In this document: positions 6,230-41,453 of the stretch, one piece after another | Layout: each line of letters starts with the position of its first letter | Position numbering within the stretch: the first letter of the stretch is position 1 | Assembly (NCBI GenBank): GCA_016794035.1 | Contig: JAEUHS010000052.1 | Span: 1-64,000, forward strand | DNA from: Planctomycetota bacterium | Lineage (GTDB): Bacteria; Planctomycetota; UBA1135; UBA2386 | Direction of reading: 5' to 3' | Length of the DNA: 64,000 nt | The notes under the pieces: generated by a model | Told to the model about the DNA's origin: nothing | Databases searched by the model: none | Seen by the model: only the letters and a program-made list of their open reading frames with translations | Position numbers and translations under genes: made by a program

Positions 6230-7213
6230 CTACTGCGGCTTCTTCGGCGCCGGCAGGTAGTGCACGCCGTTCTCGCTGCGCGTGCTGTCGAGCGCGAACG
6301 CGTCGCGGTTGTCGAGGAAGTCGATCACGTACTTGCTCTGGATCGCGAAGTTCAGGCCCTGGAAGCCCTGGTAGCCGGCGCTGTTGACGCCGACGACTTC
6401 GCCGCGCAGGTTGAACAGCGGACCGCCCGAGTTGCCGGGATTGATCGGCGTCGTGATCTGGAAGTGGCAGCGGCCTTCGAACGTGCGGTTCGTGACGCTG
6501 ATGATGCCGCTGCTGACGGTGCGGTCGAGGCCGATCGGCGCGCCGATCGCGTAGACCGTGTCGCCGACGCGCATCGCGTCGCTGTCGCCGAGGAACACCG
6601 TCTTCAACGGCAGGTCCTGCGGCGGCTCCATCTTCACCAGCGCGAGATCCAGCGTCGGCGCGATCGCGGCGACCTTGCACTTGCGCACCGTGCGCGGCTC
6701 GAAGCCGTTCCTGCCGACCTGGTAGACGACGACGTCGACCTCGACCTCGCGCTCGACGACGTGGAAGTTGGTGACGATCCAGCCATCGGCGTGCGTGACG
6801 AAGCCCGAGCCCTGGCCGCCGGCGGCCTCGATCTTGACCACGGCCTCGCCCATGACCTTCGCGCCCTCGGCGACCGAACGCTCCGGCAGCTCGGCGCGCG
6901 ACCACAGCGCGCGCCGTTCGACGCGGCCGGTGCGCGCGCCGTCGACCGACTCGCGGTGCAGAACGGCGGCGGTCGGCACCTTCAGCACGTCGAAGCCGAC
7001 GTCGAGGAAGATCGTGCTCTCGCTGACGCGCAGCACACGGCCCTGCAGTCTGCAGCCGTTGCCGAGATCGAGCGCCTCGACCCGACCCTCGACGGGGCCC
7101 TCGACCCGGTCGACGACGGCCGGCCGCGTCTCGACGATCGACGGCGGCGCCGGCGGCGGATCTTGCCAGCAGAACAGCACGGTCATGGTTGCGAGCAGCA
7201 TCGCCACAACCAT
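6230..7213 (-). CDS. Exported trypsin-like (HtrA-type) serine protease
   Basis: This 327-residue protein has a hydrophobic N-terminus (a signal peptide or anchor ending near residue 16). An N-terminal segment of about 90 residues is followed by a chymotrypsin-fold protease domain at about 115-300. The triad is visible: His in NFHVVE (near 149), Asp in TLDLALVK (near 188) and Ser in NPGNSGGPLF (near 260). The oxyanion-hole context and GSGFV loop are those of the DegP/HtrA family. No PDZ domain follows, so it is shorter than DegP and ends about 45 residues after the catalytic domain. It probably degrades or senses misfolded envelope proteins. Its start and that of the divergent gene at 7228 are 14 bp apart; in-frame ATGs at 7201 and 7186 are alternatives. 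Confidence 0.88.
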   Translation of the reverse strand: MVVAMLLATMTVLFCWQDPPPAPPSIVETRPAVVDRVEGPVEGRVEALDLGNGCRLQGRVLRVSESTIFLDVGFDVLKVPTAAVLHRESVDGARTGRVERRALWSRAELPERSVAEGAKVMGEAVVKIEAAGGQGSGFVTHADGWIVTNFHVVEREVEVDVVVYQVGRNGFEPRTVRKCKVAAIAPTLDLALVKMEPPQDLPLKTVFLGDSDAMRVGDTVYAIGAPIGLDRTVSSGIISVTNRTFEGRCHFQITTPINPGNSGGPLFNLRGEVVGVNSAGYQGFQGLNFAIQSKYVIDFLDNRDAFALDSTRSENGVHYLPAPKKPQ

Positions 7214-7227
7214 AGATTGCGGTCCGG

Positions 7228-9342
7228 ATGCACGCCACGTTCAGAGTCGTCTCGCTCGGGTCCCTGCTCGCCGCCGCCGCCGCGGCCCAGGGAACGCCGC
7301 CGCCGATCCCGGTCGAACTGCGCTCGCGCTTCGGCTTCGAAGGCCCGCTGATCACCAAGATCGGCGACGGCATCGGCAACCTGCGCATCGCCGACTTCGA
7401 CGGCGACGGCAAGCTCGAAGCCGTGGTGTCGGACGCCCGGCGCGCGCGGCTGGTGATCCTGCGCACCGACGGTACGCAGACGACGCTCGACCCGGTACCG
7501 ACACGCGGCCAGATCGCCGGCTATGCGCTCGCCGACGTGCACGGCGACGGCAAGGCGGACCTGCTGCTGGTCGACGCGCGCGGCCGGCTGACGGTGCAGC
7601 ACCCGGGCGGCGACGCGACGACTGCGCCGCTCGACCTCGGCCTCGGCGGCCGTGGCGTGGGGCTGCAGGCCGGCGACCTGGACGGCGACGGCAAGCAGGA
7701 CCTGGTCGCGCTGGTGCGCGGCAAGATGCGCTGGGTCACCGACATCGCCGGCCAGCCGAAGCTGTCGGCGATCGAGCCGCTCGAGGACAACGTGCACAGC
7801 TTCCACGTCGTCGACGTCGACGGCGACGGCCACGTCGACTTCGTCTGCTGCGTCGCGGGCACGAAGATGAACCTGCGGCTGCGGCGCGGCCACGGCGACG
7901 GCACGTTCGGCCCGTGGCGCATCGCCGGCGTCGACGATCTGCTGCACGTGTTCCCGGCCAGGCTCGCCGACGGCGGCAACGCGCTGGCGACGATCGAAGG
8001 GCCGCACCGCCGCGTGTCGCTGCAGACCTACGCCGACCACGGCGGCGACGCCGCGCTCGAGTGGTGGTCGTTCGACGAGGGCCAGAAGGACGCGCCGATG
8101 GCGGTCGGGGACCTCGACGGCGATGGCGACGACGACGTCGTCGTGCTGCAGCCCGAACGCGCGCAGATGACGTTCTTCGAGTGGCGCGACGGCACCTTCG
8201 TGCCGCGCCCGCTGCCGACGCTCGCCGGCGTCGCGTCGGTCGCGATCGGCGACGTCGACCGCGACGGCAGGCTGGACCTCGTGCTCGCGAGCCCCGAGGA
8301 GGAGACGCTGGCGTGGCAGTCGGGCGCCCGGCCGCTCGACGAGTTCCCGGTGCAGATCGCCTGCGTCGACAAGCCGGTCGCGGTCGCCGTGCACCCCGCC
8401 GGCGGCGTGCTGGTGCTGGCGCGCACCGACAAGCGCGACGCGCACATCGACCGGGTCGCACCCGGCGGCGAACCGCAGCGCCTGGTCGAGCTCGGCCGCC
8501 TGCCGGCCGATCCGGTGCGGCTGCTGGCCGCCGACGTCGGCGATGCGGACGGCCTCGAGTTGGCGTTCGTCGTGCCGAGCGAAGGTCTGCGCACGGTGTC
8601 GATCGGCGGCGCCGGCACGGACGTGAAGAAGGTCGGCAAGGGCGACGGCACCGCCGGCTTCACGCGCAAGATGGACGACGGCGCGCTGGCCCTGTGCGTG
8701 CACGAGGGCCAACCGGCGCTGCTGGCGGTGCGCGAGCGCTTCGTGCGCCGCTTCCGCGTCGACGAGGCCGGGCAGGTGCGTGTGCTGACGCAGGACAACG
8801 GGCCGGAGGGCCTCGCCGAACTGAGCCTCGCCGCCGAACTGCCGGGCGGCGCCATGCTCTACCTCGACAAGAAGAACGACAAGCTGGTGCGCACGCGGCC
8901 GGGCGCGCCGGCGACCGCGATCGAGGTGCCGGCGTTCGACTTCACGCGCCTGCTCGCGCACGGCGACGCCGCCGTGCTGGTCAGCACGCGCGGCCTGCTG
9001 CGGGTGCCGTTCGGCGGCGGCCCGTCGCTGCGGCCGGTGGCCGTGCACGAGCCGCCCACCGATCGCACCTATTACTGGAGCGGCGAGTACGGCGACTTCG
9101 ACCACGACGGCCGGATCGACCTCGTCGTCGTCGACCGCCGCCTGCCCGGCGTGCAGATCCTGGCCGGCGGCGAGGGCCGCCTCGACCGCGCCGTCGCCGT
9201 GCCGGTGTTCGAGGCGCCGCCCAGTGACCAACCCGACAGTGAGCCGCGCGAACTGGCCACTGGCGACCTCGACGGCGACGGCCGCACCGACTTCGTGCTG
9301 CTCGCACACGACCGCGTCCTGATCTACCTGCAACAGAAGTGA
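7228..9342 (+). CDS. Exported FG-GAP/VCBS beta-propeller repeat protein
   Basis: The 704-residue product begins with a signal peptide (MHATFRVVSLGSLLAAAAAAQ). It contains about nine copies of an acidic repeat of the form DxDGDGxxDxxx, for example ADFDGDGKLEAVV, GDLDGDGKQDLVA, VDVDGDGHVDFVC, GDVDRDGRLDLVL and GDLDGDGRTDFVL. These are the calcium-binding loops of integrin-like FG-GAP/VCBS blades, so the protein is expected to fold as one or two beta-propellers outside the cell membrane, probably binding a ligand or another surface protein. There is no catalytic domain. The stop codon overlaps a GTG (GTGA at 9339-9342), and the next gene begins at once, so the two form an operon. Confidence 0.88.
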   Translation: MHATFRVVSLGSLLAAAAAAQGTPPPIPVELRSRFGFEGPLITKIGDGIGNLRIADFDGDGKLEAVVSDARRARLVILRTDGTQTTLDPVPTRGQIAGYALADVHGDGKADLLLVDARGRLTVQHPGGDATTAPLDLGLGGRGVGLQAGDLDGDGKQDLVALVRGKMRWVTDIAGQPKLSAIEPLEDNVHSFHVVDVDGDGHVDFVCCVAGTKMNLRLRRGHGDGTFGPWRIAGVDDLLHVFPARLADGGNALATIEGPHRRVSLQTYADHGGDAALEWWSFDEGQKDAPMAVGDLDGDGDDDVVVLQPERAQMTFFEWRDGTFVPRPLPTLAGVASVAIGDVDRDGRLDLVLASPEEETLAWQSGARPLDEFPVQIACVDKPVAVAVHPAGGVLVLARTDKRDAHIDRVAPGGEPQRLVELGRLPADPVRLLAADVGDADGLELAFVVPSEGLRTVSIGGAGTDVKKVGKGDGTAGFTRKMDDGALALCVHEGQPALLAVRERFVRRFRVDEAGQVRVLTQDNGPEGLAELSLAAELPGGAMLYLDKKNDKLVRTRPGAPATAIEVPAFDFTRLLAHGDAAVLVSTRGLLRVPFGGGPSLRPVAVHEPPTDRTYYWSGEYGDFDHDGRIDLVVVDRRLPGVQILAGGEGRLDRAVAVPVFEAPPSDQPDSEPRELATGDLDGDGRTDFVLLAHDRVLIYLQQK

Positions 9343-26580: not shown

Positions 26581-26777
26581 CGCGCCGGCGACCATACCAC
26601 CCTCGAGTGCCGGCAGCAGCCGCGCGGACGCGGCAACCGGCTTCGGGCGAAGCGCTTGCACGCGCGGGCCTGTCCCACGGCCGAACGGCCCATTGTCATG
26701 CCCATGTCATTCCCTAGCATTGCGTCGACTCGCGCCGCGTGCGCGAAACGCCACCACGAACCACGACAGGTATCCAC

Positions 26778-27458
26778 ATGAACCTCCTCGCCTTGGCCTC
26801 CGTCGGCTGCGGGCTGCTGCTGCTGCCCCTGCTGAGTCCCTCCCAGCCGGAAACCACGTTCCCCGCCGGCGGTCGCTACATCGGCGCGGCGATGTGCAAG
26901 AACTGCCACAACGGCGCCGACAAGGGCGACGCGTACGACCACTGGTCGAAGACGGAGCACGCGAAGGCCTTCGAGACGCTCGCGTCGGACAAGGCCAAGG
27001 AGGTCGCCAAGCAGCTCGGCATCGAGGATCCGCAGAAGAGCGAGAAGTGCCTGAAGTGCCACGTCACCGCCTACGGGGTCGACAAGAAGGAGATCAAGGC
27101 CAGCTTCAAGGCCGAGATGGGCGTGCAGTGCGAGAGCTGCCACGGTCCGGGCGAAGACCACCAGAAGAAGCGCTTCGCCGAGGCGATGAAGCCGGGCACC
27201 ACGCCGTCCGAGATCACCGCCGACGAGATCCACGCCTCCCGCTCGATCGACACCTGCGGCAAGTGCCACAACAAGGAGAGCCCCACCTACAAGCCGTTCT
27301 GTCTCAAGGAGCGCATGCAGAAGATCGAGCACCTCGACCCGCGCAAGAAGCGCACGGACGAAGAACTCGCCAAGCTGCGCGCCACCGACGGCCCCGACTG
27401 TGAGGTCTGCGGCGCCACCAAGGACGCGGCGGCCAAGAAGGAAGGCGCGGACAAGTAG
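26778..27458 (+). CDS. Exported tetraheme cytochrome c (cytochrome c554-like)
   Basis: The 226-residue protein has a signal peptide (MNLLALASVGCGLLLLPLLS) and four CxxCH haem motifs: CKNCH, CLKCH, CESCH and CGKCH. Between them are conserved stretches (YDHWSKTEHAKAFETL, AYGVDKKEIKASF, GVQCESCHGPGEDH) found in cytochrome c554-like proteins that carry electrons in the periplasm. A fifth CxxC near the C-terminus (CEVCG) lacks the histidine and is not a haem site. The tail is Lys/Ala-rich. The gene stands alone but is close to the other multihaem genes of this region and may feed or drain them. Confidence 0.92.
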   Translation: MNLLALASVGCGLLLLPLLSPSQPETTFPAGGRYIGAAMCKNCHNGADKGDAYDHWSKTEHAKAFETLASDKAKEVAKQLGIEDPQKSEKCLKCHVTAYGVDKKEIKASFKAEMGVQCESCHGPGEDHQKKRFAEAMKPGTTPSEITADEIHASRSIDTCGKCHNKESPTYKPFCLKERMQKIEHLDPRKKRTDEELAKLRATDGPDCEVCGATKDAAAKKEGADK

Positions 27459-27531: not shown

Positions 27532-28908
27532 TCAGCGTGGCTCGACGCCGAACTGGCGCAGCAGCGTCGGGTCGCTGGACTTCTCGGCCAGCACCGCGTG
27601 GCACTTGCTGCAGTCGGCCGAGATCGACTCGCCGTCGGCGTCCAGGTGCTGGCCGTCATGGCACCGCATGCAGCCGCGGTGGCCGATGAAGTTCGGGTAG
27701 GTGCCCCAGACGATGTTCATGTCGGGGTGCACGTTGCGCAGCCAGATGTCGGCCACGGCCTTCGCCGCAGCCTCGAGCAGCCCGCGCTTGCCCTCGTCGA
27801 GACCGCCGTCTTGCGCGTAGGCCTGTTCGAGATCGCCGAGGATCGCGGCTGATGCGCCGTCGCGCGGCCACGGCTTCTGCAGCGCGGCCAGCGCGAACTT
27901 GCGGATGCTCGGCAGCTGCCGCGAGATCCTGCCGGCGGCAATCGCCATGTCGACGGCAGCATCGGGCTCCTGCTGGTGGTGCCCCGGCTGGTTGTGGCAG
28001 TCGATGCAGTCCATGCGGCGCAGCTCGCCTGCCGGCCGCTTGCTCGGATCCTCGCCATCCAGCGTGAAGATGCGCTCCTTGCCCTGCGCATCGACGTAGC
28101 GGATCCAGTCGATCTGCTCGCGCCGGCCGGTGCTGACGAACGACACTTCGACGCCGGCGTTGGCGTGCCAGTGGATGCCGGTGCCGCTGTCGTCCTGCAG
28201 CGTGCCGCCGATCTTCATCAGCAGCACGTTGGTGACCGGCGTCACCGCGGCGTCGTCGCCGAAGTGCTCCCGCACGACGAGACGGTCGGCGCCGACCTTG
28301 GCGGCCCAGTGGCAGTTCTCGCAGATCTCGCTGGCGTCGCGCAGCGTGTGCACCGGCGTCGGGATCGGCCGCGCATGCGTGTCGAAGGCGACGCCGGCGA
28401 CCTGCCGCAGGCCCGACAGCTTGGCCTGCACGAACGCGCCGACGCCGGGTCCGATGTGGCACTCGACGCAGGCGATCTTCGCGTGCGGCGCGTCGAGCGA
28501 CATGCCGTAGGTCGGTGCCATCACCGTGTGGCACACGGTGCCGCAAAACTGTTGGCTGTCCATGTAGTGCACGGCCTCGTAGCCGGCCGTGCCGACCGTG
28601 GCGAGGTTGACGACCGTCAGCACGCCGAGCACCGGTACGATGCGCATCGGTTTGTCCTTGAGCACCGCCATGCGCGCGCGCAACTGGCCGCGGAAGACGA
28701 GCAGGCCGATCGGCACGAGCACGATGCCGAACACGAACACCGCCGGCAGCAGCAGGAACGCGAACAGCCCCAGGTAGGCGCCGTGGCCGCCGCCGTGCAA
28801 AGCGACGTAGACCAGCGTCGTGACGAACGCCATGAAGGCCAGGGTGGTGACGACGGCACCGGTGGCCGTGATCCAGTTCGATCGCAGGAGACTCAGGAAT
28901 CGTTGCAT
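27532..28908 (-). CDS. Hexaheme NapC/NirT-type membrane cytochrome c
   Basis: The 458-residue protein has three N-terminal membrane segments (about residues 14-35, 43-68 and 88-105) followed by a large periplasmic part. It has six haem motifs: an unusual first site of CxxxCH type (FCGTVCHTVM near residue 120), then CVECH, CENCH, CIDCH, CMRCH and CSKCH. The CGTVCHTVM...HAKIACVECHIGPG segment is typical of NapC/NirT/NrfH-family quinol dehydrogenases. These take electrons from membrane quinol and pass them to periplasmic partners. The extra membrane segments and long C-terminal part distinguish it from NapC. It is convergent with the tetraheme gene and divergent from the DUF2339 gene at 29076. 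Confidence 0.92.
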   Translation of the reverse strand: MQRFLSLLRSNWITATGAVVTTLAFMAFVTTLVYVALHGGGHGAYLGLFAFLLLPAVFVFGIVLVPIGLLVFRGQLRARMAVLKDKPMRIVPVLGVLTVVNLATVGTAGYEAVHYMDSQQFCGTVCHTVMAPTYGMSLDAPHAKIACVECHIGPGVGAFVQAKLSGLRQVAGVAFDTHARPIPTPVHTLRDASEICENCHWAAKVGADRLVVREHFGDDAAVTPVTNVLLMKIGGTLQDDSGTGIHWHANAGVEVSFVSTGRREQIDWIRYVDAQGKERIFTLDGEDPSKRPAGELRRMDCIDCHNQPGHHQQEPDAAVDMAIAAGRISRQLPSIRKFALAALQKPWPRDGASAAILGDLEQAYAQDGGLDEGKRGLLEAAAKAVADIWLRNVHPDMNIVWGTYPNFIGHRGCMRCHDGQHLDADGESISADCSKCHAVLAEKSSDPTLLRQFGVEPR

Positions 28909-30845: not shown

Positions 30846-32111
30846 TCAGCGCGCCAGCGCCGCCGCGCCGTGTTCGACCGGATCGACCGGATCGATGCCG
30901 GCGGCCCGGAACTCGCCGAGCATGATCGGCGTGGCGACCTTGACCATCAGCGTGAACAACAGGAAGCCGACCGAGAAGATGCCGGCGGCGATCCACAGCT
31001 CCGAGTTCGACGGGAAGTACTCGTAGATCTCGCCGAGCGTGTCCGGCGTCATGCCCGGGATCACCAGCCCCATGCCCTTCTCGAGGTAGACGCCGATCCA
31101 GATCAGCACGCAGCCGATGTTCAGCGTGATCGGGTTGCGTCGCGTCGTCGGGATCAGGAACAGCACGAAGGCCGCGATCGAGCATCCGACCGACAGCCAC
31201 ATGTACGGCACGATCGCCGTGTGTCCGCCGATGCCGAAGAACATGTAGCGCATGAACACGAGGTGCTCCGTGTTGGAGTAGACGTCCTTGAAGACCTCGG
31301 CGCCGAGCAGGAACAGGTTGATGAACATCGTGTATGCCATCAGCTCCGCCACCTTCCAGATCGCGCGGTCGTCGATCTCGAACCGCGTGAAGCGCCGCAG
31401 CAACTGCATCAGGATCAGCAGCACGGCCGGGCCCGAGCACAGCGCCGAGGCGATGAAGCGCGGCGCCAGGATCGACTGGTTCCAGAACGGCCGCGCCGGC
31501 AGGCCGTTGTAGAGGAACGCAGTGACGGTGTGGATCGCGATCGCGGCCGGGATCGAGAACAGCACCAGCGGCAGGAACACCTTCTTGCGCGGTTGCCGCC
31601 CGCGATACAGCGAGAACAGCATGTAGGTGACGATCACCAGGTTGAGCACCAGGTAGCCGTTCAGCACGACGACGTCCCAGGCCAGCATCGACTGCGGCAG
31701 ATTCAGGGATCCGAGCCCGGGGATCAGGTGCCAGAAGCGCTCGGGGTGGCCGATGTCGACCGTCACGAACAGGCCGCACATCACGATCGACGCGATGGCC
31801 AGCAGTTCGCCGAGCACCACGACCTCCTTGATCGGCTTCCAGTTGTAGACGTAGGCCGGGATCACCAGCAGCACCGCCGCGGCGGCGACGCCGACCAGGA
31901 ACGTGAAGTTGCCGATGTAGAACGCCCAGGAGACCTGGTCGCGCATGTTGGTGGTGATCAGACCTTCCTGCAGCTGGCGCACGTAGTAGGCGGCGCCGAT
32001 GCCGATCGGCACCAGCAACGCCGACACCCAGAGCCAGTACCAGGCGTTACCGCGCAGCACGATCCTGAGGCTGCCGAGCACGAACTGCCAGAAGTTGCGG
32101 AGCGTGGCCAC
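30846..32111 (-). CDS. NrfD/PsrC-family quinone-interacting membrane subunit
   Basis: The 421-residue protein has about ten membrane segments and the motifs of the NrfD/PsrC group: WAFYIGNFTFLVGVAAA, ELLAIASIVMCGLFVTVDIG and PERFWHLIPGLGS near residues 65-135, and DYIGFFG-type turns later. This subunit exchanges electrons between the membrane quinone pool and an Fe-S partner outside the membrane. It starts with GTG at 32111, 7 bp after the stop of the Fe-S protein gene, as in most CISM-type complexes. It is the last gene of the porin/cytochrome operon and shares its stop region with the convergent DUF2339 gene. Confidence 0.93.
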   Translation of the reverse strand: MATLRNFWQFVLGSLRIVLRGNAWYWLWVSALLVPIGIGAAYYVRQLQEGLITTNMRDQVSWAFYIGNFTFLVGVAAAAVLLVIPAYVYNWKPIKEVVVLGELLAIASIVMCGLFVTVDIGHPERFWHLIPGLGSLNLPQSMLAWDVVVLNGYLVLNLVIVTYMLFSLYRGRQPRKKVFLPLVLFSIPAAIAIHTVTAFLYNGLPARPFWNQSILAPRFIASALCSGPAVLLILMQLLRRFTRFEIDDRAIWKVAELMAYTMFINLFLLGAEVFKDVYSNTEHLVFMRYMFFGIGGHTAIVPYMWLSVGCSIAAFVLFLIPTTRRNPITLNIGCVLIWIGVYLEKGMGLVIPGMTPDTLGEIYEYFPSNSELWIAAGIFSVGFLLFTLMVKVATPIMLGEFRAAGIDPVDPVEHGAAALAR

Positions 32112-32118
32112 TGGCGCC

Positions 32119-33009
32119 TCACAGGCCGTAGAAGTAGAAGAAGCGCGGGCGCGTGTTCAGCTCGCTCTTGAGCACGAAGACGCGCTTGTTCTCGAGCACC
32201 GCGCGGACCTCGGAGTCCGGGTCCAGCAGGTTGCCGAACTTGCGCGCACCGACCGGGCACACCTCGACGCAAGCCGGATAGCGGCCGTTGCGCACCCGCT
32301 GGATGCAGAACGTGCATTTCTCGACGACGCCCTTCGAGCGCGGACGATTGCCGAGGTAGTGGGTCTTCGGGTTCAGCTGCTCGGCCGGGATCTGGGGCTC
32401 GGCGTAGTTGAAGTGGCGGGCGCCATAGGGGCACGCCGACATGCAGCAGCGGCAGCCGATGCACCAGTCGTAGTCGATCACGACGATGCCGTCCTTCTCG
32501 CGCCAGGTCGCGCCGACGGGACAAGACTTCACGCACGGCGGGTTCTCGCACTGCTGGCACGCGACCGGCAAATAGAAGTGGCCGTCGCGCGGCACCTGCT
32601 CGGCGTCGTAGTAGGCATCGGCGTGGGCGAAGTCGACGCCCTTGTCCTTGTCCATCTCGAGCACGCGGATCCACTGCACCTGCGGGTCGCGGCTCTGGTT
32701 GTTCTCCTCGACGCACGCGTAGACGCAGCGCCGGCAGCCGATGCAGCGCGAGATGTCGAGCGCATAGCCGAACTCGGCGCCTGCCATCGGCGGTTCGACG
32801 CCGACCGTGACCTCCTTGCCGAAGCGCGCCGTGTTGGACTTCTCCAGCCCGGCGACGAGGTCCTTCTTCTCGGCCTCCGACATCTCGCGGAAGCGCGACT
32901 GGAACCAGCCGGTGTGTGTCAGGTCCGAGCAGCCGGCAGCCGTGGCCGCCGCCGCGCAGCTGGCGACCGCACACAGGAACTCGCGACGCGACGGCAAGGT
33001 CTGCTTCAC
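32119..33009 (-). CDS. Tat-exported four-cluster Fe-S protein (NrfC/PsrB-like)
   Basis: The 296-residue protein begins with a twin-arginine signal (SRREFL) that also has a lipobox-like TAAGC, so it is likely exported folded and lipid-anchored. Sixteen cysteines in four groups (CIGCRRCVYAC, CQQCENPPCVKSCP, CIGCRCCMSACP, and CTFC followed by CVEVCP) should bind four [4Fe-4S] clusters, as in NrfC, PsrB and DmsB. It would pass electrons between the NrfD membrane subunit and the haem proteins. The GTG start at 33009 overlaps the stop of the tetraheme lipoprotein gene (GTGA at 33006-33009) and has a GGAG ribosome-binding site. There is no molybdopterin subunit in this operon. Confidence 0.93.
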   Translation of the reverse strand: MKQTLPSRREFLCAVASCAAAATAAGCSDLTHTGWFQSRFREMSEAEKKDLVAGLEKSNTARFGKEVTVGVEPPMAGAEFGYALDISRCIGCRRCVYACVEENNQSRDPQVQWIRVLEMDKDKGVDFAHADAYYDAEQVPRDGHFYLPVACQQCENPPCVKSCPVGATWREKDGIVVIDYDWCIGCRCCMSACPYGARHFNYAEPQIPAEQLNPKTHYLGNRPRSKGVVEKCTFCIQRVRNGRYPACVEVCPVGARKFGNLLDPDSEVRAVLENKRVFVLKSELNTRPRFFYFYGL

Positions 33010-33560
33010 TTCGGTTCTCCTCGGCCAGCCAGACCCTCGGGGCGGACGGGCGGTGGCATCGGCTTCAACGGCTGGAACTTCGGCGCATGCGCGGAGTGGC
33101 AGTTCACGCACAGCAGGTAGGTCTTGTGTCCGTTCCACTCGCCCGAGCGGCGACCGTGCACACCCGCACGCCAGTCGCGGTACTTGTCGCCATGGCACTG
33201 CCCACAGAGACGGTAGGACTCCGTGAAATCGACCAGGGCGCCGCTCGCCAGGTGCAGCTTGTCGCGGCTCTCCGCCGAGTGGCAGTCGAGGCACCAGCGA
33301 TGCTCCTCGTCGTGGTGCAGCACGATCTCCGCGTGCGCCATCTCCATCGGGCGCCGCGTCCGGTTGACCGGGATCTCGGGGTCGTGGCAATCGGTGCACG
33401 GAAACGCGCCCTCGGTGAACGGCGGCGGCGGCACCTCGATCTTCTCGCCAGGGTGCCGGCCGAGCGCCGACGGCACACCTGGGAACGACTCCTCGTGTGG
33501 CGCGAGGTCGCAGGCGCAAAGGGCCAGGACCAACAACCCGATCGGCGGCAGCGGTTTCAG
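33006..33560 (-). CDS. Tetraheme cytochrome c lipoprotein
   Basis: The 184-residue product has four CxxCH sites: CTDCH, CLDCH, CGQCH and CVNCH. Many extra histidines can serve as second axial ligands. No ATG in the frame fits. A CTG at 33560, with AGGAGG six bases upstream, gives MKPLPPIGLLVLALCACD, a good lipoprotein signal with the lipid cysteine at 17 and Asp after it. In E. coli that Asp would keep the protein in the inner membrane; whether the rule holds here is unknown. An upstream GTG at 33629 is the other start but has no ribosome-binding site and adds an unlikely basic leader. Its stop overlaps the start of the Fe-S protein gene. It likely links the Fe-S protein to the 13-heme cytochrome. 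Confidence 0.88.
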   Translation of the reverse strand: MKPLPPIGLLVLALCACDLAPHEESFPGVPSALGRHPGEKIEVPPPPFTEGAFPCTDCHDPEIPVNRTRRPMEMAHAEIVLHHDEEHRWCLDCHSAESRDKLHLASGALVDFTESYRLCGQCHGDKYRDWRAGVHGRRSGEWNGHKTYLLCVNCHSAHAPKFQPLKPMPPPVRPEGLAGRGEPK

Positions 33561-33738
33561 GGACAGCCTCCTCGATGGCGGCCGGCGGCCGCATCCGTGG
33601 TGAGCGTCGAAGAACCTGCGGGCCACCACACGTTGGTGGTGGACGAGCAGCCCCGGATAGTGAACCGCAGTGCGCCCCGGGAATGCCTACGCTGCTGTGG
33701 GCAGGGTCAGCGGCGAAAGAGCGCAGCCGGCCCGAGCG
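33561..33738 (-). other. Intercistronic gap with a small hairpin
   Basis: The 178-bp gap between the 13-heme and tetraheme genes holds no gene. CCACCA (33623-33628) and TGGTGG (33634-33639) can form a 6-bp stem. Without a T tract it is not a clear terminator. It could mark an RNA processing or attenuation site between the two halves of the operon, or it could be chance. Confidence 0.3.
33567..33572 (-). promoter_or_regulatory. Ribosome-binding site AGGAGG that selects a CTG start
   Basis: AGGAGG on the minus strand lies six bases before CTG at 33560, the best spacing for any start in this frame. It is the main reason for choosing that rare start over GTG at 33629. Confidence 0.65.
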
Positions 33739-34776
33739 TCACCGATGGCAGCTGTTGCAGTCGGAGCCGTTGTCGGCGTGCGGCAGCGGCTGGCCCATGC
33801 CGTGGCACTGGCGGCAGTTCATGCCGGCGGTGTGGTCGGCCGGCTTCGGCATCGCCGACTGGTGGCTCGGCGTGCTCTTGTGGCACGTGTAGCACTCGGT
33901 GTACTGCACCGGCAGGTGGCAGCCGACGCAGTGGTTGCTGGTGGTACCGCCGAACGAGCCGAAGTGGCTGATCGGCCGCGTCTCCTGATGGCACACGTCG
34001 CACGAGTCCGTGCGGTGGCAGGTGGCGCAGTTCTGCCGGTCCATGCGGGCGTGCAGCCCATGGCCGCGCCGCCGGAAGTAGTTGTCGTGGTTGTCCGGCG
34101 GCACCGACAGATGGCACGTCTTGCAGCTGGATTCGTCGTGGCACAGCGCGCAGTCGCTGACCGTCGCCTCGTCGTGCGCCCGCACGGTCTGACCGTGCAC
34201 CTTCTGCCACTGGAACGCGTGGGAGTCCGGCGCCACGTCGACGCGCAGACGCTGATGGCAGGTCGCGCAGTCGTTCGCCACCCGCTGCTCGCGGTGGCAG
34301 CTCTCGCAGTCCCGCATGTCGAGCGCGATGCGGCGGTCGACGTACTCGCTCGCCTCGATGCCGACGTGACAGATGTTGCACTCGATCGGCCTGGTCGCGT
34401 GCTGGCGGTGCGAGAACACGATCTCGTCGTCGAGCCGGCTCAGGTGCTGGGCCTTGTAGGTGTCGCCGTCGAACAGCACGTCGACCTTGCGCTCGGGTGG
34501 CTTGTCGGCGTCGAGGTTCTCGTGGCAGAGGTTGCAGGCGCCGCGCACGGGCATGCCTGGCGCGTCCTCGCTCTCCCAGTTCATGTGGCAGTCGCCGCAC
34601 TCGAGCCCTTCCTTCTGGTGCACCGCGTGACTGAAGCCGAACGGCCGGTCCTGCGGCGAGAACACCTGGAACAGGGCGCAGCCGGTGGCGGCGAGCCCCC
34701 ACAGCACCAGCAACATGCGGCGACCGGTCGTGCGGGTGGGGTTGCCGCCGCCCGCGTCGTGTGTCAGAAGCGCCAT
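33739..34776 (-). CDS. Thirteen-heme cytochrome c (MtrA-like electron-conduit candidate)
   Basis: The 345-residue protein contains thirteen CxxCH motifs, in order CGDCH, CNLCH, CNICH, CESCH, CATCH, CALCH, CKTCH, CATCH, CDVCH, CVGCH, CYTCH, CRQCH and CNSCH. That is about one haem per 26 residues, close to MtrA (ten haems in a similar size). Many non-motif histidines are available as distal ligands. The N-terminal hydrophobic stretch (LLVLWGLAATGC) contains a lipobox, so it may be lipid-anchored. The ATG at 34776 overlaps the porin stop by 13 bp; the Met at 34716 is an alternative. Next to a porin, it should form an outer-membrane electron wire of the MtrAB/PioAB type. Confidence 0.92.
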   Translation of the reverse strand: MALLTHDAGGGNPTRTTGRRMLLVLWGLAATGCALFQVFSPQDRPFGFSHAVHQKEGLECGDCHMNWESEDAPGMPVRGACNLCHENLDADKPPERKVDVLFDGDTYKAQHLSRLDDEIVFSHRQHATRPIECNICHVGIEASEYVDRRIALDMRDCESCHREQRVANDCATCHQRLRVDVAPDSHAFQWQKVHGQTVRAHDEATVSDCALCHDESSCKTCHLSVPPDNHDNYFRRRGHGLHARMDRQNCATCHRTDSCDVCHQETRPISHFGSFGGTTSNHCVGCHLPVQYTECYTCHKSTPSHQSAMPKPADHTAGMNCRQCHGMGQPLPHADNGSDCNSCHR

Positions 34777-36095
34777 GTGACCCCCAGGCGAAGACGGTAG
34801 TACTGGTCGATGTCGTCGTCCTCGACCTCGAAGTCGCCTTCGAGCGTCACCGCGTCGCTGGTCCTGTGCCGCAGCTTCCCGTACCAGGTGCGGACGTGGT
34901 CGCGCTCGCTGTTGGTGAACAGGTCGAACTTGTAGAGCGAGTAGTAGGTGCCGATCGACACCGTGCTCTTGCCGAGTTCGTAGGTGGCGTCGCCGCCCCA
35001 GCTGCGCACGAGCTGACCGTCGCTGTTCCACAGGTCGCCGGTGCCGCTCAGGGTCAGACCCTTCGGCCCCCAGTCGTGCAGGTTCACGGTCCCGTAGTAG
35101 TGGTCGTAGTCGCGGTTGTAGAAGCCGACGTCGCTGCGGTCGCGCACGCGCCGCAGATCCGTCGCCGCCTGCAGCTGCACCAGCTGCGAGACGTCCTTCG
35201 CCGCCAGCACGGACACCTGGTCGTAGGGCCGCAGCTCGTTGAGCGAGTTGAAGAACGGATCGGCCTCGAGCACCAGGTCGCCCTGGGAGCGCAGCAGCGC
35301 GTAGTAGGACGCCTGCAGCAGCAGACCCCAGTCGCTCTGGCGCCAGGTCGCCCGCGCGCGCGCGTCGCGATCCCGGTCGCCGATGCGTGAGTACTGCAGT
35401 TCGGTCTGCAGATGCTCGCCGAGGTCCTGCCAGAACCCGGCGGCGACCAGGTCGTCGCCCTGGCCCAGCAGACGGCCATCCTCCTCGATGTGCATGTAGT
35501 CGAGGCGGAATCGCCCGCGGCGCCACGGGCGCAGCTGCGCGTAGACGCCGCCGATGAGGTCGCCCGAGTGCGACGCCTCGTAGAGGTGCGTGGAGGCACC
35601 GGCGTAGGCGCCGACCTGGAACGCGAGGTCCCCGAACTCCGCCGACGTCACGTGCGCGCCGTCGAGGAAGGCGACCTCGGGAGTCTCGTAGATGGACTGC
35701 CTGCCGATGCGCACCAACGAGAAGCCGCCGAGGCGATGCAGGTCGACGTAGGCGTCGTAGACCAGGCCGTCGAGACGCTGACCGTAGGTGTCGCTGAGGC
35801 CCGTGAACGTGCCGTCGGTCCCGTCCATGTCGTAGGCGAGCCGGCCCATGAAGTGGGCGCTGACCGCGTGCCGTTCGGCATCGCCGGCATCGAGCGACAG
35901 CGTCGTCAGCAGATCGTTGTCGGTGTCGTCGCCGGTCCACCGCAGGTAGTAGCGCGACGTCAACCGACCGCGAACGAGCGCGGGCGGCGGCGGCGTGGTC
36001 GCCGCCGCGGCGGCCGCCGGCTGCTGCGGCGACGCCGGGTCCGGCCCCTGCGCGGCGAGCCCGGCACACGCCAGCACGGGCCCCAGCAGCAGCAT
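34764..36095 (-). CDS. Outer-membrane beta-barrel protein (porin of a porin-cytochrome conduit)
   Basis: The 443-residue product has a signal peptide (MLLLGPVLACAGLAAQ) and a Pro/Ala-rich linker. About 20 alternating amphipathic strands follow, rich in Tyr, Trp, Asp and Arg and without long hydrophobic helices. It ends in RLRLGVTWRF, with the C-terminal Phe required by the barrel-assembly machinery. The size is smaller than MtrB (about 28 strands) but fits other conduit porins. The ATG at 36095 is chosen because it begins the signal peptide. Its 3' end overlaps the 13-heme gene by 13 bp, which ties the two together. The 219 bp upstream hold no gene and should carry the operon promoter. Confidence 0.82.
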   Translation of the reverse strand: MLLLGPVLACAGLAAQGPDPASPQQPAAAAAATTPPPPALVRGRLTSRYYLRWTGDDTDNDLLTTLSLDAGDAERHAVSAHFMGRLAYDMDGTDGTFTGLSDTYGQRLDGLVYDAYVDLHRLGGFSLVRIGRQSIYETPEVAFLDGAHVTSAEFGDLAFQVGAYAGASTHLYEASHSGDLIGGVYAQLRPWRRGRFRLDYMHIEEDGRLLGQGDDLVAAGFWQDLGEHLQTELQYSRIGDRDRDARARATWRQSDWGLLLQASYYALLRSQGDLVLEADPFFNSLNELRPYDQVSVLAAKDVSQLVQLQAATDLRRVRDRSDVGFYNRDYDHYYGTVNLHDWGPKGLTLSGTGDLWNSDGQLVRSWGGDATYELGKSTVSIGTYYSLYKFDLFTNSERDHVRTWYGKLRHRTSDAVTLEGDFEVEDDDIDQYYRLRLGVTWRF

Positions 36096-36314: not shown

Positions 36315-36791
36315 TCAGCTCTCCATCGTCGCGTGCAGGAACCAGGCGTGCTTCTCGAACATCGTCACGATGCCCGTCAGGCCGTCGACGGTGTCGTCGT
36401 CCTTGTGCTCCAGGGCGATGTTGCGCGCCGCACGCACGCCGGCCAGGTAGGTCTCGATGCGCTCGGCGAGCAGGCGGACGTGCTCCATGTCCTTGGTCAC
36501 GTCCTGCGGGTAGTCGCTGAGCCGCGAGTGCTTGGCGACGTGGCGCGCGGTGCCGACCGCGAGGCTGCCGAGCGTGCGGACGCGCTCCGCGAGGTCGTCG
36601 TTCTGCGTCTGCAGATCGGTCGCGAACTGGTCGAACAGCGGGTGCAGGGCCGCGAACTGCGGCCCCTTGATGTTCCAATGCGCGACCTTGATCTGCGAGT
36701 GCAGGTCGATGCCGTCGGTCAGCACCGGCAGCAGCGCGTCACAGATCTTCTTGCGGACGTCGGCGGGAATCTGGCTCGGGGAGTTCTTCAT
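36315..36791 (-). CDS. dps: Dps-type DNA-binding ferritin
   Basis: The 158-residue protein has the Dps core. The ferroxidase-site signature includes HSQIKVAHWNIKGPQF and a spaced Asp/Glu pair in FDQFATDLQTQNDDLAERV near residue 60-75. Dps proteins form 12-mers that oxidise and store iron with hydrogen peroxide and protect DNA under stress. The ATG at 36791 has a good AGGAGA ribosome-binding site. It is 56 bp after a Fur-family regulator gene on the same strand and probably lies in its regulon. The N-terminal tail (KNSPSQIPADVRKKI) has a few lysines, so DNA binding is possible but not assured. Confidence 0.93.
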   Translation of the reverse strand: MKNSPSQIPADVRKKICDALLPVLTDGIDLHSQIKVAHWNIKGPQFAALHPLFDQFATDLQTQNDDLAERVRTLGSLAVGTARHVAKHSRLSDYPQDVTKDMEHVRLLAERIETYLAGVRAARNIALEHKDDDTVDGLTGIVTMFEKHAWFLHATMES

Positions 36792-36847
36792 GTCGTCTCC
36801 TGGGTCTCGTGGGGGGAATCGTCGGGGAGTGGCGTCTGGATGCGCGG

Positions 36848-37261
36848 TCAGCCGCGGGTGCGTCGCCCGCGCACGACGACCATGTATTCGCGCACGTCGA
36901 CGCCCTCGAGCTGGTCGACCTTGCCGACCCGCAGCGCGGACCACGGGATGTCCTCGATCCGGCCGGTCACGTCGTCGACGAAGTGGTGGTGCGGGGCCAC
37001 GTGCGGGTCGAACACGACGCAGCCTTCGGCCAGCACCAGCTGCCGCAACAGCCCGTGTTCGGTGAACAGCTGCAGCGTGTTGTAGACCGTCGCGCGCGAG
37101 ACCATCGGGAAGTCGGTCTTGACCCGCTGCCAGACCTCGTCCGCCGACGGATGCTCGCTGGTCGCCAGCACGTAGCCGGCGATGGCGACGCGCTGCGCCG
37201 ACGGCCGGATGCCGGCGCGTTCGAGGCGGTCGATCAGGTCGGCGGCGGTGGTCTTGCTCAT
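36848..37261 (-). CDS. Fur-family (PerR/Irr-like) metal- or peroxide-responsive regulator
   Basis: The 137-residue protein has the winged-helix of the Fur family (IRPSAQRVAIAGYVL, FPMVSRATVYNTLQLF) and the metal-site HHH motif in PHHHFVDDVTGRIEDIPW. The Cys-x2-Cys pairs of the structural zinc site in classic Fur/PerR are missing. PerR/Irr-like family members without them exist. Its place before dps suggests a peroxide or iron response. The ATG at 37261 is 13 bp from a palindrome (37274-37292) that should be its own operator. The upstream extension to 37333 has no family support. Confidence 0.9.
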   Translation of the reverse strand: MSKTTAADLIDRLERAGIRPSAQRVAIAGYVLATSEHPSADEVWQRVKTDFPMVSRATVYNTLQLFTEHGLLRQLVLAEGCVVFDPHVAPHHHFVDDVTGRIEDIPWSALRVGKVDQLEGVDVREYMVVVRGRRTRG

Positions 37262-37273
37262 CGTTCCTGCTCT

Positions 37274-37292
37274 ATTTAGACTATGTCTAAAT
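37274..37292. promoter_or_regulatory. Perfect palindrome, probable Fur/PerR-family operator
   Basis: ATTTAGACTATGTCTAAAT is an 8-base inverted repeat around a TAT centre in strongly AT-rich sequence that stands out from the GC-rich surroundings. It lies just upstream of the Fur-family regulator gene and resembles PerR/Irr-type boxes (TTAGA-n-TCTAA cores). It is likely an autoregulatory operator overlapping the promoter of the regulator-dps unit. Confidence 0.8.
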
Positions 37293-37369
37293 ATCGGCGA
37301 TGTCAAGATCAGCACGAGGCGCCCCGGGCCCACCCGCCGACGGCAGCGGTTGTCGTCCGCGCGGCCGGA

Positions 37370-37942
37370 TCAGCCGCCGAGCCGCTCGGCCGTGTGCACC
37401 AGCCGCTGCAGCACCTTCTGCACGCCGGCCATGTGCCTGCCGTCCAGCAGCGCACCGTCGGGCCCGAACGCGCTCGCGGCGCCGCCGAGCGCGAACTGCT
37501 CGGTGATCACCAGCAGACCGAGGTTCATCAGGATCTGGCGCAGATGCACGAGACCGCGCAGGCCGCCGAGCGCGCCCGGCGAACTCGACAGCAACCCGGC
37601 GACCTTGCCCTGGAACACCGACACGCCGGGCTCCGGCGCGTGCGGCCGCGACAGCCAGTCGAGCGTGTTCTTCAGCACGGCGGGGATCGAGGCGTTGTAC
37701 TCCGGCGACACGACCAGCAGCGCGTCGTGCTGCTGCACGACGGCGCGCAGCCGCACCGCCGCCGCGGGCAGCCCATCGGCCGCCTCGAGGTCGCCGTCGT
37801 AGAGCGGCATCGCGTAGTCGCGCAGGTCGATGCAGGTCGCAGCGGTGCCGTTCGCCTCGGCGAGCTGGCAGGCGGCGCGCGCGAGTTGCTTGCTGAACGC
37901 GCCCGTGCGCAGCGAACCGGGCACGCAGAGGAGCTTCGTCAT
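37370..37942 (-). CDS. NADPH-dependent FMN reductase
   Basis: The 190-residue flavodoxin-fold protein begins MTKLLCVPGSLRTGAFSKQLA, the usual phosphate-binding motif of the FMN_red family. It has VVSPEYNASIPAVLKNTLDW near residues 77-96 (flavin ring binding) and a GLLSSSPGALGGLR loop. It reduces FMN or other quinone/azo-type acceptors with NAD(P)H in the cytoplasm. Its ATG overlaps the stop of the Aas-like gene (ATGA at 37939-37942), so it is translated after it. Substrate preference and any link with the acyltransferase are unknown. Confidence 0.9.
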   Translation of the reverse strand: MTKLLCVPGSLRTGAFSKQLARAACQLAEANGTAATCIDLRDYAMPLYDGDLEAADGLPAAAVRLRAVVQQHDALLVVSPEYNASIPAVLKNTLDWLSRPHAPEPGVSVFQGKVAGLLSSSPGALGGLRGLVHLRQILMNLGLLVITEQFALGGAASAFGPDGALLDGRHMAGVQKVLQRLVHTAERLGG

Positions 37943-40900
37943 TCGGCGGCGATCGTAGTCCCGGCCGCTTCCAGGCAAAGCTCCTTCACGCGACGCAGGT
38001 CGAGCTTGCCGGTGCCGAGCAGCGGCAGCGCCGCCACCTGCACGAACTGGTCGGCGCGCGGCACGAACAGCGCCGGCAGGCCGCGCGTCGTCAGCTGCTG
38101 CAGCACGGCCTTGCGCTGCGGTTCGTCGAGCGTGGTCAGCACCATCAGGCGCTCGCCCTTGCGCGGGTCGGGCACGCCGCAGACCGCGAACGCGCGCTGC
38201 TCGCCGCCGAAGCACTGCTGCAGGTGCTCCTCGACGGTGCCGTGCGGCACCATCTCGCCGCCGATCTTGCTGAAGCGCGACAGGCGGTCGGTCAGGAACA
38301 GGAACCCGTCCTCGTCGAGACGGCCGATGTCGCCGGTGACGTAGCTGCCCTCGTGCAGCGCCGCGGCGGTCAGATCGTCGCGGCCCAGGTAGCCGCGCAT
38401 CACGTTCGCGCCGCGCACCAGCACCAGCCCCGGTTCGCCGGCCGGCAGCGGTCGCCGGGTCTCGGGATCGACGATGGCCACCGCGACGCCGGGCAACGGC
38501 CGCCCCACCGAACCGCGGCGCGAACCCGCCTGGTAGAAACCCGCGGCGCGGTAGCCCGGCGTGCTGACGGCGACGACCGGCGCACACTCGGTGCAGCCGT
38601 AACCCTGCACCGGCCGGATGCCGAAGCGGTCGGCGAACGCATCGGCCAGCGTCTCGGTCAGCTTCTCGGCGCCGGTCAGCACGACGCGCAGCGAACCGAA
38701 CTGCCCCGGCTCGCAGCGCCGGTGGTAGAGCTGCAGGAACGTCGGCGTCGCCAGCAGGATCGTCGCGCGGTGCCGCGCGACCAGGTCGCCGACCGCGGCC
38801 GCGTCGAGCGGGTTGGGATGGAACACGATGCCGGCGCCCTGCTGCAGGCCGTACCACAGCGCCAGGTTGCCGAACGAGTGGAACAGCGGCAGCACGCCGA
38901 CGAGGCGGTCCTCGTGCTCGAGCGGGATCACCTGCGCCACGCCGTCGCAGTTGGCCTGCACGTTCGTGTGCGTCAGTTCGATGCCCTTCGGCTCGCCGGT
39001 GCTGCCGCTGCTGAAGATGACGACCGCGGTGTCGGTGCTGGCGACCGGCCGCACGGCGCCGCAGGCACGTTCGAGCGAGCCGAGCGGCAGCACGAGCGCC
39101 GACAGCGCCGCGCGCAGGCGTTCTCCACGACCGACGTTCGCGAGCACGTCTTCGAGCAGCACCAGCTCGACGTCGGGCGGCAGCTGCAGCGGCACACGTT
39201 CGAGGAACGCGCGCGACGTCAGCACCGTGCGCAGCGAGGCCTGTCGCACGCTCGAGGCGAACGACGCGGCGCCGACCGTGTAGTTCAGCGGCACCGCGAC
39301 CCGCCCAGCGAGGCTGGCGGCGATGCCGGCCAGCGCGCCGGCGATCGACGGCGGCAGCAGGATGCCGACGCGCTGCTGTCCGGCCCACGACACGCGCAAC
39401 CGCCGCGCCAGCACGACGGCGGCGGCGAGCGCGCCCAGCCGCGACAGGTGCCGGCCCTGCGTGTCGGCCAGCGCCGCTCGCCACGGCGCGCGGCGCACGC
39501 GGCGCACGAACGCGTGGTGCAGCGGCCGCAGCTCGCGCGCGCGCAGCCGGAAGGCCCGCTCGGCCAGCAACTCGACGCGGCGACGCACCGCCTCGGGCGG
39601 CGTCGTGTTGTCGACGGCGTGGTCGAACGACACCGTCACCGGACACGGCACCTGCGTCGGCCACCACTGCAGGCGCCCCTGCCGCGCGCTGAGCAGGCCG
39701 CCGTAGACGCGGTCGAGGTGCACCGGCACGATCCTGGCGCTGCGCCCCTTGACGATGCGCTGCAGACCGCGCCGGAACGGCAGCGTGCTGCCCATGCGCG
39801 AGATCTCCCCCTCGGCGAACAGGCAGACCAGTTCGCCGGCGTCGAGCGCTGCGCCGGCGTCGCGCAGCGCGCGCAGCAGCACGCGCGGCCCGCCGCCGCC
39901 GCTGATCGGGATCGCCCGCATCGCACGCAGGAACGGCTTCAGGTACCAGCGTTCGTACCAGTACTGCTCGACGACGAACCGGATCGGGCGATCGGTCGCC
40001 GCCAGCAGGAACAGCGCGTCGAGGAACGACACGTGGTTGGGCACCAGCAGGGCGCCGCCGGTCTCCGGCACGTGGCGCGCGCCGAGCACGCGCACGCGGT
40101 AGAGCGAGTGCGCCGCGAGGATCACGAACAGCCGCAGCAGCGCCTCCGGCAGCAGCCAGATCGCCCACCCGGTCGCGACCAGCGTCAGCCCGGCGGCGAC
40201 GACGAGGATCGTCGCGACGTCGGCGCCGAGATTCGCCAGCAGCAGGCACCCGAAGGTGCCGGCCAGGATGCCCGCGAACGACAGGCCGTTGACCAGCGCG
40301 ATCACGGCGCCGCGCCGCGCGGCCGGTGCGCGCCACTGCAGCAGCGCGTTCAGCGGCACGACGACGAAGCCGCTGGCGACGCCGAGCAGCGACATCAGCA
40401 CGAACGTGCCGACCCGCCCCGGCACCAGCAGCCCCATCGCGCCGGTGCCGAACGCCAGGCCCAGCGCACCGAGCGGGATCAGCCCGGTCTCGACCTTGCC
40501 GTCGGCGATGCGGCCGGCGAGCAGCGAGCCCGCACCGACGCCGATCGCGAACAGCGCGTAGGGCACGCCCGAACAGGTGTCGTCGAGCAGCAGCACCTGC
40601 TTGCCGTAGATCAGCACGTCCTGCCCGAGCAGGCTGGCCAGGCCCCAGAACACCACCGAGCCCAGCATCGCCAGCCACAGCACGCGGTCGGCCCGCAGCG
40701 CGCGCCAGGCGGCCGCCAGCGTCGGCCCGAACGGTTCCGCGCTGCCGCTCGGCGCCACGCGCGGCAACGACAACGACGCCACCAGCCCCACCACCGCGAG
40801 CGCGGTCAGCAGCGCGCCGGCGAGCCAGACCCGGGCACCGCAGGCGTCGAGCAGCAGGCCGCCGGCGACGGTGCCGAGGATGATCGCCAGGAAGCTCGCC

Positions 40901-41364
40901 GCCTCGAGCCGCCCGTTCGCGCCCGAGAGCTGCTCGTGCGGCAGGATCTCCGGCAGGATGCCGTACTTGGCCGGCGCGAACAGCGCGCTCTGCGCGCCCA
41001 TGCCCGCCAGCACGACCAGCGGCAGCCAGCCGTCCGGCGCCAGCCACAGCGCCACGGTGCCGGCGAGCATCAGCAGCACCTCGGCGAACTTGGTCCAGAC
41101 CACCAGCGAGCGCTTGCCGACCCGGTCGCCGAGCGCCATCGCCGGCAGGCAGAACAGCATCAGCGGCAGCGTGAACACCGCCGTCGCCAACGTCGTCGCC
41201 GTCTGCTTCGCCGACTCGCCCTGCTCGCCCGCCGCGGCGATCGCCAGCAGCACGAGCAGCATCTTGAACGCGTTGTCGTTGAAGGCGCCGAAGAACTGCG
41301 CGATCAGCAGGCCGCGGATGCGCGGGGCCGGGGTCGGCAACGGGTCGGTGGCGGTCTCGGTCAT
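37939..41364 (-). CDS. aas: Trifunctional MFS lysolipid transporter / acyltransferase / acyl-ACP ligase (Aas-like)
   Basis: The 1141-residue protein fuses three parts. Residues 1-420 form an LplT-like MFS transporter with about 12 membrane segments (LIAQFFGAFNDNAFKMLLVL near the start). Residues 420-640 form a PlsC-type acyltransferase with NHVSFLDALFL (HxxxxD type) and the EGEISRMG motif. Residues 650-1140 form an AMP-binding acyl ligase with VIFSSGSTGEPKGIELTH and GYGCTECAPVVAVS. Such fusions take up lysophospholipids and re-acylate them with an activated fatty acid. The start at 41364 begins the conserved MFS core; an in-frame ATG at 41415 also exists. It is divergent from a LysR gene, 89 bp away. 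Confidence 0.92.
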   Translation of the reverse strand: MTETATDPLPTPAPRIRGLLIAQFFGAFNDNAFKMLLVLLAIAAAGEQGESAKQTATTLATAVFTLPLMLFCLPAMALGDRVGKRSLVVWTKFAEVLLMLAGTVALWLAPDGWLPLVVLAGMGAQSALFAPAKYGILPEILPHEQLSGANGRLEAASFLAIILGTVAGGLLLDACGARVWLAGALLTALAVVGLVASLSLPRVAPSGSAEPFGPTLAAAWRALRADRVLWLAMLGSVVFWGLASLLGQDVLIYGKQVLLLDDTCSGVPYALFAIGVGAGSLLAGRIADGKVETGLIPLGALGLAFGTGAMGLLVPGRVGTFVLMSLLGVASGFVVVPLNALLQWRAPAARRGAVIALVNGLSFAGILAGTFGCLLLANLGADVATILVVAAGLTLVATGWAIWLLPEALLRLFVILAAHSLYRVRVLGARHVPETGGALLVPNHVSFLDALFLLAATDRPIRFVVEQYWYERWYLKPFLRAMRAIPISGGGGPRVLLRALRDAGAALDAGELVCLFAEGEISRMGSTLPFRRGLQRIVKGRSARIVPVHLDRVYGGLLSARQGRLQWWPTQVPCPVTVSFDHAVDNTTPPEAVRRRVELLAERAFRLRARELRPLHHAFVRRVRRAPWRAALADTQGRHLSRLGALAAAVVLARRLRVSWAGQQRVGILLPPSIAGALAGIAASLAGRVAVPLNYTVGAASFASSVRQASLRTVLTSRAFLERVPLQLPPDVELVLLEDVLANVGRGERLRAALSALVLPLGSLERACGAVRPVASTDTAVVIFSSGSTGEPKGIELTHTNVQANCDGVAQVIPLEHEDRLVGVLPLFHSFGNLALWYGLQQGAGIVFHPNPLDAAAVGDLVARHRATILLATPTFLQLYHRRCEPGQFGSLRVVLTGAEKLTETLADAFADRFGIRPVQGYGCTECAPVVAVSTPGYRAAGFYQAGSRRGSVGRPLPGVAVAIVDPETRRPLPAGEPGLVLVRGANVMRGYLGRDDLTAAALHEGSYVTGDIGRLDEDGFLFLTDRLSRFSKIGGEMVPHGTVEEHLQQCFGGEQRAFAVCGVPDPRKGERLMVLTTLDEPQRKAVLQQLTTRGLPALFVPRADQFVQVAALPLLGTGKLDLRRVKELCLEAAGTTIAAE

Positions 41365-41453
41365 GGGCAGGCTCGCTGGCACAGGCGAAGTATCGCCGCC
41401 GCGTTCGTTCCACATGAGGAAGTTGTGCTGCAGGCTTCGATAAGCTGTGCTTC

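Follow-up and report, generated by a model that had tools for sequence, protein, structure and literature searches.

A thirteen-haem predicted lipoprotein cytochrome paired with an outer-membrane barrel in Planctomycetota: a probable porin-cytochrome conduit

The window analysed here, a 64,000-nucleotide stretch of Planctomycetota DNA, encodes a 13-haem c-type cytochrome (c13) that probably carries the electrons in a porin-cytochrome (Pcc) conduit spanning the outer membrane; judged from sequence, we place the probability of this reading at roughly 0.8. A porin-like outer-membrane protein is encoded immediately next to c13, its 22 predicted strands fall in the range of 18-22 given for Pcc porins (PMC4245776), and the 13 haem motifs lie within the range of 5-14 for Pcc cytochromes. 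The outer-membrane multihaem lipoprotein that accompanies most Pcc members is encoded elsewhere in the genome. Among the points against the conduit model are the separate location of this third part, away from the two paired genes, and the number of well-conserved distal histidines, 12 for 13 haems.

The cytochrome gene and its barrel partner

The central features of the locus are as follows.

33739..34776 including the stop codon (coding 33742-34776), minus strand: c13, 13-haem c-type cytochrome and predicted lipoprotein, 345 residues
34678..34680, minus strand: lipobox cysteine C33 (LAATGC) of c13, a cysteine in 24 of 25 aligned sequences
34249..34668, minus strand: ActA/QrcA-like N-terminal domain of c13 (residues 37-176, haems 1-5), recognised by phmmer/hmmsearch, Foldseek and a QrcA profile
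33745..34152, minus strand: C-terminal block of c13 (residues 209-344, haems 6-13), its best conserved part
34764..36095, minus strand: outer-membrane beta-barrel with 22 predicted strands (AlphaFold2 model) and a C-terminal Phe (WRF)

The first-pass annotation had counted thirteen haem motifs in 345 residues, about one per 26, and the translation bears this out: c13 has exactly 13 CxxCH motifs, at residues 60, 81, 133, 157, 170, 209, 218, 250, 259, 283, 295, 321 and 340, or one per 26.5 residues. A chance origin of this density is ruled out by 20,000 composition-preserving shuffles, which gave a mean of 0.18 motifs and a maximum of 4. The protein has 27 cysteines, 26 of them inside the motifs and the remaining one, C33, in the lipobox. 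The start at 34776 is sound because homologues share an M-x-L-L beginning at the equivalent place (MALL, MELL, MDLL, MQLL). In an alignment of 25 Planctomycetota sequences with 31-46% identity to c13, all 13 motifs are invariant in every sequence, and the haem spacing is nearly invariant over the array within this one conserved gene. Twelve non-motif histidines (50, 53, 123, 126, 186, 194, 230, 239, 271, 282, 305 and 333) are kept in 22 to 25 of the 25 rows and a thirteenth, His 315, in 16. The conserved histidines would suffice as distal ligands of 12 haems, as expected for haems that are mostly bis-His.

The annotation had also raised a possible lipobox and, with it, placement at a membrane. 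A small residue followed by cysteine occupies this position in 36 of 39 distinct loci; the N-terminal location and wide conservation of the lipobox make membrane attachment likely. With a signal peptide and a lipobox cysteine, c13 has the features expected of a bacterial lipoprotein, and lipidation is predicted.

The frame of the barrel gene is open upstream to 36233, and its start is taken at the methionine at 36095. By the coordinates of the reading frames, the start of c13 overlaps the 3' end of the barrel gene by 13 nt, which suggests translational coupling. The AlphaFold2 model (pLDDT 83.2, pTM 0.78) is a confident barrel of 22 strands, and a Foldseek search with it retrieves large outer-membrane barrels in general, such as AlgE and usher pores; MtrB is absent among the 50 matches listed. 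The barrel protein alone receives no Pfam assignment, and one of 24 barrel homologues matches MtrB_PioB weakly. Nearly all barrel homologues end in Phe, as is typical of outer-membrane barrels. The barrel beside the cytochrome turns out to be a constant companion: of 41 loci surveyed, 39 distinct ones include DNA upstream of the c13-family gene, and each of them, anammox genomes included, has a barrel homologue immediately upstream in the same orientation. In the other two the contig ends before a barrel could be seen.

The barrel gene is itself preceded (36315-37333, minus strand) by neighbouring genes for a Dps/ferritin-like protein (PF00210) and a FUR-family regulator (PF01475), for which a link to iron or peroxide is possible. 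Further upstream, at 37939-41415 on the minus strand, a single frame of 1158 residues fuses MFS transporter, acyltransferase and AMP-binding ligase domains.

The named relatives of c13 from a single-protein scan all belong to Planctomycetota, the nearest being 59% identical, and a plasmid search gave no match. In a sample of 199 Planctomycetota genomes, 68 have some match to c13, many of them to the ActA-like N-terminal half only, and by a count from the match table the long c13 family occurs in about 39. One genome carries four full-length copies of the family on four contigs (G161). The high-haem Pcc conduit thus appears widespread in Planctomycetota, in most cases with a large multihaem protein encoded close by; in a 2014 survey the phylum was represented among high-haem Pcc systems by one anammox genome (PMC4245776).

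Two-part architecture and the haem-number series

The cytochrome consists of two dissimilar parts. The N-terminal half matches subunit A of alternative complex III (ActA) in phmmer/hmmsearch, Foldseek leads from the predicted model to ActA, and the QrcA profile is matched by 20 of the 25 aligned family sequences. ActA and QrcA are subunits of inner-membrane complexes. The C-terminal block is made largely of dihaem units, with a repeated CxxCH-x4-CxxCH-PxxH pattern, and is the more conserved, with a mean identity of non-motif columns in the 25-sequence alignment of 0.52 against 0.38-0.42 in the N-terminal half. Haems 6-13 are the candidate barrel-crossing segment. The AlphaFold model of c13 is poor at residues 195-298 (pLDDT about 40), and the C-terminal half is too poor for haem placement. 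The outcome that the first-pass annotation had set against a single wire, two unrelated repeats, is only partly borne out: an ActA/QrcA-like module is joined to a remainder of dihaem units, but the two belong to one conserved gene with nearly invariant spacing.

Homologues with 15, 17 and 19 haems carry their extra motifs mostly as dihaem cassettes of about 45 residues (CxxCH-x4/5-CxxCH-PxxH-HG) inserted between haems 5 and 6. The 17-haem and 19-haem homologues (L078 and L077) are built by tandem cassettes of this kind. Two other members (L079 and L081) and the anammox group have gained one haem in the N-terminal half, instead of or besides cassettes. The barrel hardly changes over this series. 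Its mean length is 417 residues at 13 haems and 423 at 15, and the single 17- and 19-haem cases have 428 and 445. Set against the number of haems, barrel length gives a Spearman correlation of 0.30 (p = 0.07), which leaves room for a weak upward trend.

The first-pass annotation had considered that the whole chain might fit inside the barrel. This is disfavoured because haems rise from 13 to 19 at nearly constant barrel length and because the N-terminal half is ActA/QrcA-like. Even the ten-haem MtrA reportedly projects from MtrB into the periplasm by about 30 A (PMC7096707). On the simplest interpretation, which a cytochrome model poor in this region leaves provisional, the additional haems of the 15-19-haem homologues would lie outside the barrel. 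A more specific version, which we put forward tentatively and at somewhat less than even odds, is a modular, lipid-tethered wire across the outer membrane, in which dihaem cassettes (giving 13, 15, 17 or 19 haems) would tune the periplasmic reach between a receiving domain derived from an ActA/QrcA-like protein and a fixed eight-haem segment threading a constant 22-strand barrel. The natural series from 13 to 19 haems at near-constant barrel length makes it testable how much of the wire sits inside the barrel.

Electron supply, surface partner and direction of transfer

Several genes on the downstream side of c13 encode redox proteins, some of them candidate suppliers of its electrons.

33006..33629, minus strand: c4, tetrahaem c-type cytochrome (4 CxxCH; Cytochrome_C7/Paired_CXXCH), candidate periplasmic electron donor
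32119..33009, minus strand: twin-arginine (SRREFL) 4Fe-4S protein, DsrO-like (Fer4_11; DsrO NF045797, E 1e-53, below its cut-off)
30846..32111, minus strand: NrfD-type integral membrane protein, DsrP-like, candidate quinol oxidoreductase (PF03916, E 1e-36; NF045798 DsrP, 412 bits, cut-off 350)
27532..28824, minus strand: membrane-anchored NapC/NrfH-like cytochrome (5 CxxCH; TIGR03153, E 8e-9), start uncertain, possible second quinol entry
26775..27458, plus strand: tetrahaem cytochrome c554-like protein (PF13435, E 1.6e-21)

The trio of c4, 4Fe-4S protein and NrfD protein also follows c13 in two near relatives (L057 and L068). Over the 41 loci an NrfD protein is found near c13 in three and a 4Fe-4S protein in four. 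Given how few family members have it, the module is probably just one of a set of suppliers that can replace one another on the quinol side. NapC/NrfH-like relatives lie near the barrel-c13 pair in three loci (L037, L045 and L047) and cytochrome c554-like relatives in many. A true DsrMKJOP system of sulfite reduction is rejected because a search of the genome found no dsrA, so the DsrP label is not to be taken as sulfate reduction. The NCBIfam equivalog model NF045798 seems to over-reach, as this NrfD protein passes its cut-off in a genome without dsrA.

A large multihaem protein is encoded within 6 kb of the c13 family in 29 of 41 loci, a count that at the locus of the 19-haem homologue includes that homologue itself, beside other large ones. 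Of six large multihaem proteins that were scanned, five come from the vicinity of c13; all six have ten haems and either two or three PF22113 domains of the MtrC/MtrF type. The genome of the window has none beside the barrel-c13 pair; its decahaem protein, a predicted MtrC/MtrF-like lipoprotein, is encoded on another contig (C121), matches MtrF and is 62% identical to a c13-adjacent copy in a genome of the same family (G125). All three conduit parts, barrel, c13 and surface decahaem protein, are therefore present in the genome. A further multihaem frame with 15 CxxCH motifs lies on contig C38 of the same genome (L071), at 6958-8589, near a weak match to a 4Fe-4S protein.

The proposed route begins at the quinol pool, where the NrfD/4Fe-4S module, the NapC-like cytochrome or both would feed small cytochromes of the c4 type. 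These would deliver electrons to the ActA/QrcA-like domain (haems 1-5), which would sit in the periplasm on a cytochrome whose lipid anchor would hold it in the outer membrane's periplasmic leaflet. Haems 6-13 would thread the barrel, and from them the electrons would reach first the decahaem protein at the surface and then an extracellular acceptor. We favour this outward direction, in which the cell would respire an extracellular acceptor; since terminal oxidases are also encoded, it is not the only option of this genome.

Those oxidases would also suit the opposite direction, with Fe(II) or another extracellular donor oxidised by the pair in the manner of PioAB or MtoAB. Inward and outward conduits are built from similar parts, and a two-gene porin-cytochrome pair with no adjacent surface cytochrome resembles the clusters of Fe(II) oxidisers (PMC4245776). 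The genome does encode an MtrC/MtrF-like surface cytochrome, typical of outward conduits, and has no match to the RuBisCO large subunit, a result that bears on the RuBisCO route of carbon fixation only; we regard an inward wire as unlikely. The resemblance to ActA and QrcA, taken with the DsrO-like and DsrP-like genes downstream here and in the two near relatives, would also suit a c13 that is an inner-membrane subunit of the NrfD/4Fe-4S quinol oxidoreductase, with the barrel an unrelated neighbour. It is difficult to reconcile this with a barrel that is adjacent in every visible case while the supposed partner subunits are so seldom near, and the ActA matches are limited to the N-terminal half, leaving the eight-haem block unexplained, so that such an assignment seems very unlikely.

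More improbable still is a c13 displayed on the cell surface and fed by another conduit, the barrel merely exporting or seating it. The lipobox would fit this location, and the surface cytochromes OmcB and MtrC are lipoproteins (PMC6148476), but the genome already has a suitable candidate for this role in its other, large MtrC/MtrF-like lipoprotein, and the multihaem protein that regularly accompanies the barrel is c13 itself. The conduit with c13 as its wire accordingly remains the preferred reading.

Comparison with known systems

The MtrA, DmsE and PioA cytochromes, with MtrB or PioB, work in a like manner, combining a multihaem wire, a barrel and an MtrC-type surface cytochrome. They have 10 haems against 13 in c13, and MtrB is predicted to have 28 strands against 22 here. 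That c13 has more motifs than MtrA in a similar length is confirmed, MtrA having 333 residues and 10 haems (PMC4245776). No match of c13 to the DmsE-family model TIGR03508 is found at E 0.01, although seven of the 25 family sequences match it weakly at E<=0.001; neither a sequence search with c13 nor the full family profile at E 0.01 reaches MtrA, and the profile of the C-terminal block does so (6r2q_A) only at E 0.23. Membership of c13 in the MtrA/DmsE family is rejected on its 13 haems, the missing TIGR03508 match and the marginal MtrA match. ActA of alternative complex III and QrcA of menaquinone reductase match haems 1-5 in sequence and predicted fold and do not match the eight-haem block.

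The OmbB-OmaB-OmcB complex of Geobacter sulfurreducens, compared by description, also has a barrel smaller than MtrB, a cytochrome on the periplasmic side and a surface lipoprotein cytochrome, and its OmaB has 8 haems against 13 in c13. Within the PVC group, Verrucomicrobia have clusters in which a novel porin of at least 20 strands adjoins a multihaem cytochrome; that cytochrome has eight haem sites and is described as periplasmic (PMC5615132). In the open literature consulted we did not find a description of the conserved predicted lipidation, the ActA/QrcA-like receiving domain or the haem series at near-fixed barrel size, and no priority is claimed.

The closest counterpart is the Pcc of Candidatus Kuenenia stuttgartiensis. 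According to Shi et al. (2014), the clusters of Kuenenia and Anaeromyxobacter consist only of a porin and a cytochrome of 338-344 residues with 12-14 haems (PMC4245776), so the exceptional standing first accorded to c13 finds no support, the anammox members being homologous to it. As at the c13 locus, the Kuenenia system has two adjacent genes, for a porin-like outer-membrane protein and a multihaem cytochrome, the latter with 12 or 14 haems in 338-344 residues; the account terms it periplasmic and in its treatment of the cluster discusses no lipobox (PMC4245776), whereas c13 has one. The same authors propose that the additional haems make up for the lack of a surface cytochrome (PMC4245776), a proposal weakened because many 13-haem members have a large multihaem protein alongside; most non-anammox relatives have one nearby, and the anammox homologues do not.

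The anammox homologues have 13-14 CxxCH motifs, and hydrazine synthase alpha is found in six of the seven genomes of family f45 searched, including that of the homologue L036/L056. This protein has 338 residues, a barrel next door, about 31% identity to c13 and 14 haems against 13, the extra one in the N-terminal domain. The anammox homologues fit the description of the Kuenenia Pcc, L036 most closely, and L036 may be that very Kuenenia gene. A later paper reports extracellular electron transfer by anammox bacteria and includes a porin-cytochrome complex in the pathway it proposes (PMC7188810). The c13-barrel pair is thus most likely a further example of the kind already described in Kuenenia, a placement that rests on sequence similarity to the anammox members fitting that description.
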